Positions 4,546-42,166 of a stretch of 64,000 nucleotides of DNA are shown piece after piece. The translations under genes and the position numbers were made by a program. The stretch covers positions 186,001-250,000 of the forward strand of contig NZ_PDNU01000003.1 of NCBI RefSeq assembly GCF_002631185.1. The letters run 5' to 3'. This DNA comes from Teichococcus rhizosphaerae. Its GTDB lineage: Bacteria > Pseudomonadota > Alphaproteobacteria > Acetobacterales > Acetobacteraceae. Position 1 is the first letter of the stretch. Each line of letters starts with the position of its first letter. The notes under the pieces are model-generated. The model made no database searches. It was not told the DNA's origin and saw only the letters and a list, made by a program, of their open reading frames with translations.

Positions 4546-5427
4546 ATGCTCGAACGCGTGACGCAGACAGACAACACCGCCGACGGCCGCATCCACCCCA
4601 CCGCCGAGATCCACCCGACCGCCATCGTCGCGCCGGGCGCGCGCATCGGCGCCGGCTGCCGCATCGGGCCCTGGTGCACCGTGGGCGCGGACGCCGTGCT
4701 GGCCGAGGGCGTGGTGCTCGCCTCCCACGTCATCGTCGAGGGCCATGCCGAGATCGGCGAGAAGGTGCAGGTCAGCCCCTTCGCCACCATCGGCCTCGCG
4801 CCGCAGGACCTGAAGTACAAGGGCGAGCCGACCCGCGTCGTCATCGGCGCCCGCACCCTGATCCGCGAGCACGCCACGGTGCACCGGGGCAGCATCGGCG
4901 GCCACGGCATCACCAGCGTGGGCGCGGACTGCCTGCTGATGGTCAACGCCCATGTCGGGCATGACTGCACGCTCGACCACCACGTCATCCTGGCCAACAA
5001 CGTGATGCTGGGCGGCCATGTCGAGATCGCCGACACGGTGTTCGTCGGCGGCGGCGCCGCCATTCACCAGTTCGTCCGCATCGGGCGGCAGGTGGTGGTG
5101 GGCGGCATGAGCGGCGTCGAGGCCGACATCATCCCCTTCGGCGCCGTCATGGGCAACCGCGCGCGGCTGACCGGGCTGAACCTGATCGGGCTGAAGCGGC
5201 GTGGCTTCCCGCGCAGCCAGATCCACACGCTGCGCGCCGCCTATCGCAGCCTGTTCCGCACCGCCGGCGTGTTCCAGGACCGCGTGTCCGTCACCGAGGC
5301 GAGCTTCGGCGAAGACCCGGTGGTGCGCGAGATCCTGGCCTTCATCCGCGCCGACAGCCGCCGTGGCCTTTGCCGCGCCGGCCGCGAGCTGCTGGACGAG
5401 GAGGATGGCGCGGAGGCCGCGGCGTGA
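4546..5427 (+). CDS. lpxA: LpxA, UDP-N-acetylglucosamine acyltransferase
   Basis: First step of lipid A synthesis: transfer of a 3-hydroxyacyl chain to the 3-OH of UDP-GlcNAc. The 293-residue product has hexapeptide repeats from about residue 15 to 200, the catalytic His139 in NAHVGHDCTLDHH, and a C-terminal helical domain from about 205. The ATG at 4546 follows the fabZ stop by 4 bp. A GTG at 4558 is an alternative that would remove four residues and cannot be excluded. The product is about 30 residues longer than E. coli LpxA, mainly at the two termini. Confidence 0.95.
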   Translation: MLERVTQTDNTADGRIHPTAEIHPTAIVAPGARIGAGCRIGPWCTVGADAVLAEGVVLASHVIVEGHAEIGEKVQVSPFATIGLAPQDLKYKGEPTRVVIGARTLIREHATVHRGSIGGHGITSVGADCLLMVNAHVGHDCTLDHHVILANNVMLGGHVEIADTVFVGGGAAIHQFVRIGRQVVVGGMSGVEADIIPFGAVMGNRARLTGLNLIGLKRRGFPRSQIHTLRAAYRSLFRTAGVFQDRVSVTEASFGEDPVVREILAFIRADSRRGLCRAGRELLDEEDGAEAAA

Positions 5428-5448
5428 CGGCTGCCGGGCGCTGAGCCG

Positions 5449-6357
5449 ATGCCGAGGACGGGCGGGCTGCTGGACGGGATACGGATGCCGGAGGCGGGCC
5501 CGAGCGGCAAGGGGCCGCTGGGGATGATCGTGGGGGGCGGGCTGCTGCCGCAGCGCGCCGCCGCCGCCGCCGCCGCCGCCGGGCGGGTGCCGCATGTGGT
5601 GGTGCTGGAGGGCTTCGGCGACCCGCGCGACTACGCCGCCTATCCGCACATCGTCTGCCGCCTCGGGGCCGCCGGCCGCATGCTGGAATGGCTGCGCGCC
5701 GCCGGGGCGCGCGACCTGGTGCTGGCCGGCCGCGTTTCCCGCCCCAGCTTCTTCGCCCTGCGCCCGGATGCGGGCGCGGCGCGGCTGCTGCCGCGCATCG
5801 GCATGAAGGCCTTCGGCGGCGACGACTCGCTGCTCTCCGCCGTGGTGCGGGTCCTGCTCGAGGAGGGCTTCTACCCGATGGAGGCCTATGCCGTTCTGGA
5901 GGATCTCCTGGTGCGCGAGCCCGCAGCCCTGACCAGCCATCTCCCCGATGAGGATGCGCGGCGCGACATCCGCCGCGGCCTCGCCGTGCTGCGCGCGATG
6001 GGCGGGGCCGATGTGGGGCAGGGGGCGGTGGTGCAGCAGGGGCTGGTGCTGGCCGTGGAGGCGATCGAGGGCACCGATGCCATGCTGGCCCGCGCCGGCG
6101 CGCTGCGGCGCGAGGGGCCGGGCGGCGTGCTGGTCAAGATCCTGAAGCCGGGCCAGGACCGGCGGGTGGACCTGCCCACCATCGGGCCGGACACGGTGGC
6201 CAACGCCGCCGCGGCGGGGCTGCGCGGTATTGCCATCGAGGCGAACGGCACCATCATCGTCGATCGTGCGGCGACGGCCGCGGCGGCCGAGGCCGCGGGC
6301 CTGTTCCTGCTCGCCATCGACCCGTCCCACGAGGCCTGGTCCGAAACCATTTCCTGA
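5449..6357 (+). CDS. lpxI: LpxI, UDP-2,3-diacylglucosamine pyrophosphatase (DUF1009)
   Basis: Hydrolyses UDP-2,3-diacylglucosamine to lipid X and UMP. This is the alphaproteobacterial functional replacement for LpxH. The 302-residue protein has the N-terminal domain starting [13 protein letters not shown], and the C-terminal DUF1009 domain with the conserved [11 protein letters not shown] segment, whose Asp210 is the likely catalytic acid. In-frame ATGs at codons 13 and 26 are plausible alternative starts, because the first 20 residues are not well conserved in the family as I know it. A run of eight in-frame GCC codons (5557-5580) gives a polyalanine stretch. It is 21 bp after lpxA. lpxB, which often follows, is not here. 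Confidence 0.93.
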
Positions 6358-34444: not shown

Positions 34445-34930
34445 ATGGCCGAGCCCCGCAAGAAATCGCTGATCTCCCACGGCACCGCCGCGCAGAACCG
34501 CAAGGCGCGCTTCGACTACAAGATCGGCGACACCTACGAGGCCGGGCTGGTGCTGCTGGGGCCGGAGGTGAAGTCGCTGCGCGCCGGCCGCGCCGCCATC
34601 GCCGAGGCCTGGGCGGGCGAGCGGGATGGCGAGCTGTGGCTGTTCAACAGCTACATCCCCGAATGGCAGGCGGGCAGCTTCGTCTCGCATTTCGAGCCGC
34701 GCCGGCCGCGCAAGCTGCTGCTGAAGAAGAAGCAGGTGGAGAGCCTGCTGGGCGCCGTGGCGCGCGAGGGTGTCACGCTGGTGCCGCTCGAGATCCTGTT
34801 CAACGACCGCGGCATCGCCAAGGTCGTCCTCGGCCTGGGCGAGGGCAAGAACAAGGCCGACAAGCGCCACGCCATCGCCGCCCGCGACTGGCAGCGCGAC
34901 AAGGCGCGGCTGATGCGCGAGAAGGGCTGA
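34445..34930 (+). CDS. smpB: SmpB, SsrA-binding protein
   Basis: Binds the tRNA-like domain of tmRNA and delivers it to stalled ribosomes. The 161-residue product has an oligonucleotide-binding beta-barrel: NRKARFDYKIGDTYEAGLVLLGPEVKSLRAGRA and LHIPEW-like SYIPEWQAGSF. It ends in the basic C-terminal tail (GKNKADKRHAIAARDWQRDKARLMR) that enters the ribosomal mRNA channel. Its RNA partner ssrA and the tag adaptor sspB are about 6 kb downstream on the other strand. Confidence 0.97.
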   Translation: MAEPRKKSLISHGTAAQNRKARFDYKIGDTYEAGLVLLGPEVKSLRAGRAAIAEAWAGERDGELWLFNSYIPEWQAGSFVSHFEPRRPRKLLLKKKQVESLLGAVAREGVTLVPLEILFNDRGIAKVVLGLGEGKNKADKRHAIAARDWQRDKARLMREKG

Positions 34931-40080: not shown

Positions 40081-40614
40081 TCAGTCCCGCGCGGGGCGGC
40101 GGCGGAAGGCGTCGAGGCTCACCACCTGGGCGGGCCCCTCGGGCTCCGCCGGAGCCGCCGGGCCCTCCTCGGATTGTTCCGCCATGGGAGCGGGGGCGGC
40201 GTCCGCCGCGGCCGGGCGGGGCGCTTCCGTGCCCTCGGCCGAGGGGAAGCGCAGCCCCACCCGCACATGCGGGTCCCAGAAGGCGGTGATGGCGGAGATC
40301 GGGATCACCAGCGTGGCGGGAACGCCGCCGAAGGAAAGGCCGGCGGTGACGAAGCCTTGCTCCCGGTTGACCTTCAGGTCCCAGAACTGGTGCTGGAGGA
40401 CGATGGTCATCTCCTCCGGGTAGCGGGCCTTGAGGTGGCCGGGGATGGAAACCCCGGGCCGGTCGGTGCGGAAGGTCAGGTAGAAATGGTGCTCGCCGGG
40501 CAGGCCGTGCTCGCCCGCATGCTCCAGGGCCCGCAGCGCGACCTCGCGCATCGCGTCCTCGGTCCAGCGATCGTAAGGCAGCAGGCTTTCCGCCTGCCTG
40601 GTCTCATCCGTCAT
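40081..40614 (-). CDS. sspB: SspB, ClpXP adaptor for ssrA-tagged proteins (alpha type)
   Basis: Tethers ssrA-tagged proteins to ClpX. The 177-residue product has the SspB core (about 8-115) with [86 protein letters not shown] disordered Ala/Pro/Glu linker follows, and then a short C-terminal motif [14 protein letters not shown] that is the likely ClpX-binding tail. It lies directly downstream of ssrA on the same strand, a telling neighbour because alpha-type SspB recognises the tmRNA tag. Confidence 0.93.
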
Positions 40615-40710
40615 GCAGCATACCCCGGCAGACGCCCAGAAAACGCATGACCCATACCGGATGCTCCCAGGGTGCGGGAAGTGGCCCGGGTCAGGAAAGG
40701 AACGGGAGAG

Positions 40711-41006
40711 GCCAATCAGTGGGGGGATTCTGTTGCCCGGTTCCCCCCGGACCGCGCTTACCTATTGTTAGGCAGCGAGCGCCACAGCCTCGCGGCTGTT
40801 ATCGTTGGCACTTGTGATATAGCCCGATAACGGCGGTACAATGCCGGGCAAAAGACATGGCTTTACCACGCGCGTCGAGCCTGTTTCGTCCCCAGAAGCC
40901 CGCCAGACGATCCCTGGCGGCGATGCTGGTGGAGACGCCGGGCACTGCCCCCGGGTCCGCAACGCTTATTCCACATGCCGTTTATCGCCATAGTCCCCGA
41001 GGGGAC
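40711..41006 (-). ncRNA. ssrA: tmRNA, circularly permuted two-piece form
   Basis: The gene reads, 5' to 3' on the minus strand, acceptor piece, excised spacer, coding piece. The acceptor piece (about 41006 to 40927) ends in an encoded CCA after CGTCTCCA; the coding piece starts at 40893 with GGGGACGAAAC. These ends form a 7-bp acceptor stem, GGGGACG with CGTCTCC, including the G3-U70 wobble that identifies alanine-accepting RNAs. A T-arm-like stem CCGGG/CCCGG lies at 40938-40954. The spacer is 40894-40926 (33 nt). The coding piece carries the tag frame and closes with a GGGGGG/CCCCCC helix (40743-40748 with 40721-40726). Outer boundaries are estimates to within about 10 nt. Confidence 0.93.
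40768..40809 (-). other. ssrA: tmRNA proteolysis-tag reading frame
   Basis: Thirteen codons from GCC (40809-40807) encode ANDNSREAVALAA, followed by TAA and, after one codon, a second in-frame TAG. Added after the tmRNA-borne alanine, the finished tag would be A-ANDNSREAVALAA. The AANDN start matches tags recognised by alpha-type SspB and the LAA end matches the ClpX degron. This is not a free-standing protein gene. Confidence 0.93.
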
Positions 41007-41012
41007 GGGGCA

Positions 41013-41018
41013 GATATA
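41013..41018 (-). promoter_or_regulatory. Candidate -10 element of ssrA
   Basis: TATATC on the minus strand, about 7 nt upstream of the GTCCCCTCGGGGAC dyad (40993-41006) at the presumed 5' end of the tmRNA precursor. No confident -35 was identified. Confidence 0.4.
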
Positions 41019-41029
41019 GTCCGGCCTGC

Positions 41030-41064
41030 GGCGGAAATCGAGGGGGTGGCCCCCGAAATCCGCC
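41030..41064 (-). terminator. Hairpin downstream of gldA
   Basis: Stem GGCGGA / TCCGCC enclosing GGGGG / CCCCC with a TGG loop and an internal A-rich bulge. It is placed 20 bp past the gldA stop and before the ssrA promoter, so it would separate the two transcripts. Confidence 0.5.
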
Positions 41065-41083
41065 CCGCCCGCGCGCCAGGCGC

Positions 41084-42166
41084 TCAGGCCATGCCACGGC
41101 CGATCGCGTCCCCCGCCCGCAGCGCCGCCAGCACCGCGCCGGGCGAGACGGGGTAGGGGGCGTTGTGGATGGTCTCGCCGGGCGCGCAGGCGGCCTCGGC
41201 GGCCTGCATCAATGCCGCGTCATCCGCATCGCCGAGGCCGATCCCGGCCAGGGTGGTAGGCAGGCCGATGCGGGCGCAGAAGCCGAACACCTCGTCGATC
41301 AGCGCCGGCGGGCGGCCGCCCAGGATGGCGAGCGCCTGGGTGCCGATCGCCACCTTCTCCCCGTGCCAGTAGGCATGGGTGCCGTGCAGCTTCGTCAGCC
41401 CGTTGTGGATGGCATGCGCCGCCGAAAGGCCGCCGCTCTCGAAGCCGAGGCCGGACAGCAGGGTGTTGGCCTCGATGATCCGCTCAAGCGCCGGGGTCAC
41501 CACCTGCTGCTCACAGGCGCGCAAGGCCTGCTCGCCATATTCCAGCAGCGTGTCGTAGCAGAGGCGCGCCAGGGCATGGGCGGTGGCACTGCCGGGGCGG
41601 CCCGTCATGTTGCCAGCGCCCTTCACCCGGCAATCCTCCGCCTCGAACCAGGTGGAGAGCGCATCCCCCATGCCCGCCACCAGGAAGCGGGCCGGGGCAC
41701 GCGCGATCAGCGCGCTGTCCACCAGTACCACCTGCGGGTTGTGCGGCAGGAAGAGATAGCGGTGGAAGGCGCCCTCCGGCGTGTAGATGACGGACAGGGC
41801 GCTGCATGGCGCGTCGGTGGAGGCGAGGCTCGGCACCACGATCACCGGCAGGTTGAGGCCGTGCGCCACGGCCTTGGCCGTGTCCAGCGCCTTACCGCCG
41901 CCGACGCCGATGACGAGGTCGTTCCCCGCCGCGCGCGCCGCCGCCTCCAGCCGGGCGATCTCGGGCTCCGAGCACTCGCCGCCAAAGGCCTCCCGCGCGA
42001 AGGGGGCGCCATCCTGGCCGGCCAGCGAATTGCCGAGCAGCGGCGCCACCGCCTTGTCCACCACGGCAAGCGGCCGGCGGCCAAGGCGCGCCGCCTCCTC
42101 GCCGAGCAGTTCCAGCGCGCCGGCGCCCTGCACGTAGCGGCCGGGGAAGATGCTGGTGCTGACCAT
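41084..42166 (-). CDS. gldA: Glycerol dehydrogenase (iron-containing alcohol dehydrogenase family)
   Basis: NAD-dependent oxidation of glycerol to dihydroxyacetone. The 360-residue product has the nucleotide-binding GVGGGKALDTAKAVAH (about 87-102), VPSLASTDAPCSALSVIY, and metal ligands Asp168 (AGMGDALSTWFEAE), His251 (GLSAAHAIHNGL) and His268 (AYWHGEKVAIG), equivalent to those of characterised bacterial GldA. The start at 42166 is fixed by a strong ribosome site AGGAGG (42175-42180) eight bases upstream. A 16-bp AT-rich palindrome lies about 85 bp upstream. No dihydroxyacetone kinase is adjacent. Confidence 0.92.
   Translation of the reverse strand: MVSTSIFPGRYVQGAGALELLGEEAARLGRRPLAVVDKAVAPLLGNSLAGQDGAPFAREAFGGECSEPEIARLEAAARAAGNDLVIGVGGGKALDTAKAVAHGLNLPVIVVPSLASTDAPCSALSVIYTPEGAFHRYLFLPHNPQVVLVDSALIARAPARFLVAGMGDALSTWFEAEDCRVKGAGNMTGRPGSATAHALARLCYDTLLEYGEQALRACEQQVVTPALERIIEANTLLSGLGFESGGLSAAHAIHNGLTKLHGTHAYWHGEKVAIGTQALAILGGRPPALIDEVFGFCARIGLPTTLAGIGLGDADDAALMQAAEAACAPGETIHNAPYPVSPGAVLAALRAGDAIGRGMA

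Follow-up and report, generated by a model that had tools for sequence, protein, structure and literature searches.

A circularly permuted tmRNA gene, alphaproteobacterial in type, from a Roseomonas-like bacterium of the Acetobacteraceae

We analysed a 64,000-nt stretch of DNA (hereafter, the window) and found that its minus strand carries what is almost certainly a functional ssrA gene, present in one copy and circularly permuted as in other Alphaproteobacteria, from a Roseomonas-like bacterium of the Acetobacteraceae. A preliminary description, made from the letters alone, had placed such a tmRNA gene at 40711–41006. The identification as a permuted tmRNA gene was supported by ARAGORN, by two covariance models and by counts of conserved pairs among relatives. 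The features of the gene and of its presumed protein partners are collected in Table 1.

Table 1. Features of the permuted ssrA gene and of its presumed protein partners in the window.
Feature	Position	Strand	Basis
-10-like element TATATC of the presumed ssrA promoter	41013..41018	-	direct sequence; promoter role presumed
Acceptor piece, ~80 nt: T arm, 3' acceptor strand, encoded CCA; 5' end estimated	40927..41006	-	RF01849 and RF04321 alignments
Spacer, 33 nt, presumably removed at maturation	40894..40926	-	direct sequence; removal presumed from other species
Coding piece, ~180 nt: 5' acceptor strand, tag frame, 3' pseudoknot; 3' end estimated, model stops at 40718	40711..40893	-	RF01849/RF04321 alignments, pair counts
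Tag reading frame, 13 codons GCC...GCC, ANDNSREAVALAA	40771..40809	-	ARAGORN, direct sequence
TAA CAA TAG: stop, one codon, second in-frame stop	40762..40770	-	direct sequence
3' pseudoknot as drawn by us: CGGT/ACCG and GGGGGG/CCCCCC stems	40721..40754	-	helices 7 and 8 of the pair count
smpB, 161 aa, protein partner of tmRNA	34445..34930	+	Pfam PF01668, E 1.9e-48
sspB, 177 aa, presumed ClpXP adaptor reading the tag	40081..40614	-	Pfam PF04386, E 6.8e-43

The covariance-model check proposed with the preliminary description gave minus-strand matches to two models. With cmscan, RF01849 (alpha_tmRNA) matched positions 40718–41045 at 239.6 bits (E 2.8e-68, model 1–355 of 355), and RF04321 (tmRNA_permuted) matched positions 40768–40989 at 140.2 bits (model 1–213 of 213). 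The gathering scores are 50 bits for RF01849, 47 for RF04321 and 47 for the standard tmRNA model RF00023. ARAGORN, run on the whole window, reported one gene, a permuted tmRNA with the tag ANDNSREAVALAA. The strength of these matches is far beyond chance. The outer ends vary by source: 41006 and 40711 are estimates of the preliminary description, ARAGORN gave 40677–41021, and the RF01849 match reaches 41045 because this model takes in upstream sequence.

Direct reading of the minus strand confirmed the permuted order of acceptor piece, 33-nt spacer and coding piece that had been described. The 3' acceptor strand CGTCTCC is followed by a discriminator A and by the encoded CCA (40929–40927), and the 5' acceptor strand GGGGACG begins at 40893; together the strands form seven of seven pairs, including the G3–U70 pair of alanine. 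The 13 tag codons are likewise followed, as claimed, by TAA (40770–40768) and an in-frame TAG (40764–40762), and ARAGORN called the same tag. The permuted tmRNA had thus been recognised correctly from raw sequence, inner boundaries included. The tag frame is of the alpha_tmRNA type, in that ANDNSREAVALAA has a small hydrophobic end (ALAA type) before the stop, for which recognition by ClpXP is predicted. The spacer contains a 7-bp inverted repeat read by eye (CCGCCAG/CTGGCGG, 40920–40914 with 40906–40900). An ORF of 99 aa runs antisense across the tmRNA gene (40857–41156, plus strand); it is probably a chance frame in G+C-rich DNA.

The TATATC element is the presumed ssrA promoter element, with transcription presumably starting near 41006; an exact CTATAT was present at the corresponding columns in 27 of 34 loci of a MAFFT alignment. 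A simple sigma-70 scan reported no promoter on the ssrA strand, TATATC included, its sole promoter-like match being on the opposite strand. No terminator for ssrA was found by the promoter/terminator scan.

We assessed the conservation of the structure in that alignment, which comprised 34 loci from the same genus and family (33 distinct rows). The 44 pairs counted were those of the RF01849 alignment minus its 5' hairpin, one stem from RF04321 and the 3' pseudoknot drawn by us; the hairpin was left out because MAFFT gaps fragmented it, and PK1 was covered only by its CGGC/GCCG stem. Standard pairs made up 97.7% of cells. Both-side changes were seen in 17 of the 44 pairs, compared to a shuffle mean of 7.4, and none of 500 shuffles reached as high. 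Control structures slid along the alignment were 44–57% paired, with two to five both-side-changed pairs, although such controls were disfavoured because the structure came from model alignments to the window sequence and from the drawn pseudoknot. The acceptor stem was paired in 100% of cells over 33 rows: five of its seven pairs were invariant, one was U-A in 18 rows and C-G in 15, and the U-G pair corresponding to the alanine G3–U70 was kept in all 33 distinct rows. In the 3' pseudoknot, 99.2% (helix 7) and 98.5% (helix 8) of cells were paired, with both-side changes in two pairs and in none, respectively. The second helix was the weakest (88.7% paired), with one of its pairs open in 12 of 33 rows. 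All 56 loci of the genomes searched, the window's own included, have a perfect 7-bp acceptor stem whose two strands flank a spacer; the search pattern fixed GGG and TCC at the end of the stem, and those pairs are therefore not independent findings. An extra acceptor pairing given for one genome (G023) by the spacer script was set aside as false.

Spacer length ranged from 3 to 87 nt in the 55 of 56 loci with an encoded CCA. The shortest spacers, of 3 nt compared to 33 nt in the window, were TAG in L039 (genome G008), TAG in L013 (G018) and TAT in L056 (G050), so that almost nothing is left there for excision. The remaining locus (L031 of G028; tmRNA at 5358–5645, minus strand) has an acceptor piece lacking an encoded CCA: CGCCTCC is followed by ATATAGG, i.e., the stem is followed by A and six nucleotides without CCA. 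An assembly fault is possible in this case, given a genome completeness of 86% and a distance of 280 nt between the match and a contig end.

By analogy with characterised alphaproteobacteria, we infer that the mature RNA consists of two separate molecules. Retention of the spacer, giving one continuous permuted mature RNA, would be compatible with the sequence and with the spacers of only 3 nt in relatives, but we regard it as very improbable. From established tRNA knowledge, a CCA end joined to the spacer would be unchargeable. Moreover, the tmRNA of S. meliloti was mapped as two pieces of 214 and 82 nt, according to an extract of PMC2873474, compared to the ~180 and ~80 nt predicted here. 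Cleavage of permuted tmRNA transcripts is described in an extract of PMC11915505, and an excerpt of a review (PMC3985003) presents processing of the precursor as a possibility, with RNase P and tRNase Z as the probable enzymes.

The two-piece RNA would come from the only gene of its kind in the assembly (4.65 Mb in 113 contigs; listed completeness 100%, contamination 0.7%), in which RF01849 matched the window's gene and nothing else. The standard one-piece model RF00023 gave seven matches of 74–91 nt in this assembly, none above the cut-off, and ARAGORN called all seven as tRNA genes (four Ala, one Ile, one Ser and one Gly). Weak RF00023 matches arose in all 14 control genomes too, with nine above the cut-off. 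A second or one-piece tmRNA in the assembly was looked for and rejected, with nothing else above cut-off by either model. That this ssrA is a decayed or silent copy and the working tmRNA lies elsewhere in the genome is less probable still, and next to negligible: a gap in a 113-contig assembly is possible in principle and is all that favours it, against which stand the sole RF01849 match in an assembly listed as complete, the identity of the weak RF00023 matches as tRNA genes, and a tag frame and seven acceptor pairs that are all intact.

We searched 58 genomes (own, same genus, same family and same class) with RF01849 and found a tmRNA gene above the cut-off in 55, own included. The three genomes without a match (G015, G056 and G057) have completeness values of 71, 71 and 91, respectively. 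Among the 14 control genomes, Caulobacter alone gave an RF01849 match. The 55 genomes provided 56 loci, since G002 carries two matches (L034 and L035), located on two contigs and equal in score and tag. This genome is 5% contaminated, and the pair is a duplicate or a mixed assembly.

ARAGORN yielded a tag for 54 of the 56 loci, the exceptions being L008 and L053. The tag ANDNSREAVALAA occurred in 11 of the 56: nine of the 16 matching genomes of the same genus (own included) and two others of the family. The remaining seven same-genus genomes had ANDNGRETMALAA (four) or ANDNGRETVALAA (three). Four loci from same-class genomes (L011, L015, L045 and L056) received long or odd ARAGORN tags, e.g., ANSNKAPVANFNRAYAAVAA and AKDSINDNTPALVAANGNYLAARAA. 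A degenerate tag pattern retrieved 36 stretches from named genomes, with titles naming Roseomonas, Neoroseomonas, Falsiroseomonas, Pseudoroseomonas, Plastoroseomonas, Roseococcus, Rhodovarius, Crenalkalicoccus, Sabulicella and Acetobacteraceae bacterium; we take these genera to be relatives of Roseomonas. ARAGORN called a tmRNA with ANDNSREAVALAA in 35 of the 36, which overlap with the 56 loci, as several contigs of equal length show, and are not an independent count. In the stretch without a call (L071), the pattern match lies at most 62 bases from the contig end, and the gene is therefore cut off there. The tag ANDNSREAVALAA is thus a feature of the Roseomonas-like group. The suggestion that it was worth recording as notable was not borne out by these counts, and we rejected the idea of an unusual tag, as it recurs across Roseomonas-like genomes. 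No occurrence of the tag string turned up among the paper texts searched.

The gene type is already known: it has long been described from the Alphaproteobacteria, and the present case is ordinary and of low novelty. An excerpt of PMC4131195 gives a 2014 count of 247 two-piece tmRNAs among 1631 unique sequences, and an extract of a 2025 database paper (PMC11915505) gives 11,946 unique permuted sequences. The remark in the preliminary description that such genes are easily missed by protein-centred annotation holds only in a weaker form, given this catalogue and the fact that standard tools (ARAGORN, Rfam) detect ssrA at once. The biological gain is small, for a known type of gene with a tag that is widespread among its relatives.

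Both presumed protein partners are encoded in the window, and each gave a single match in the own assembly. SmpB scored 164.1 bits with PF01668 (cut-off 27). The sspB gene lies on the same strand as ssrA, 103 nt downstream of the end of the RF01849 match. An HMM search seeded with the window's SspB found an sspB relative at 43 of the 56 loci (window included), downstream of ssrA and on the same strand in all 43. The matched part of sspB started less than 200 nt past the end of the RF01849 match in 38 of these and at 721–1500 nt in five. No sspB relative was found at 13 loci, for nine of which no more than 1500 nt of downstream sequence was available; the loci of G022, G028, G041 and G045 had none despite at least 4.9 kb downstream. 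It is possible, although we consider it rather unlikely, that selection across the Alphaproteobacteria keeps ssrA and sspB adjacent and in one direction, perhaps under one promoter, with tag and adaptor made and evolving together; this is a conjecture. The frequent ssrA–sspB neighbourhood is the only point here possibly worth a further look, and we do not claim it as new.

Our observations cover the sequence, its conserved pairing and the occurrence of ssrA, smpB and sspB; with transcription, processing, charging, tagging and degradation extrapolated from the family, the RNA would work as follows. On the minus strand, transcription would start near 41006. The 33-nt spacer would then be excised by RNase P and 3' processing, leaving an acceptor RNA that ends in CCA (40927) and a coding RNA that begins with GGGGACG (40893). 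The acceptor stem, along with further helices, would keep the two RNAs joined, and the pair would take alanine and enter stalled ribosomes together with SmpB. The unfinished protein would there receive the sequence (A)ANDNSREAVALAA and then be destroyed by SspB and ClpXP. For function in Caulobacter, the review PMC3985003 cites Keiler 2000.

One-piece tmRNA (RF00023) and permuted tmRNA have the same function. The window gene differs from the standard RF00023 form in its permuted order, and its assembly has no RF00023 match above the cut-off. It resembles RF01849, the model for the two-piece tmRNA of Caulobacter, S. meliloti and their kin, in its permuted order, acceptor stem and full-length model match, and its tag starts with ANDN, as do most tags among the 56 loci. 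It departs from RF01849 in having fewer nucleotides beyond the tag stop than the model consensus and in a tag sequence of its own, common to Roseomonas-like relatives. The whole of RF04321 (213 positions) is also matched, but with a lower score than the alpha model (140.2 compared to 239.6 bits); according to an extract of PMC11915505, RF04321 covers alpha, beta and cyanobacterial forms in general, with pairs limited to the tRNA-like domain.
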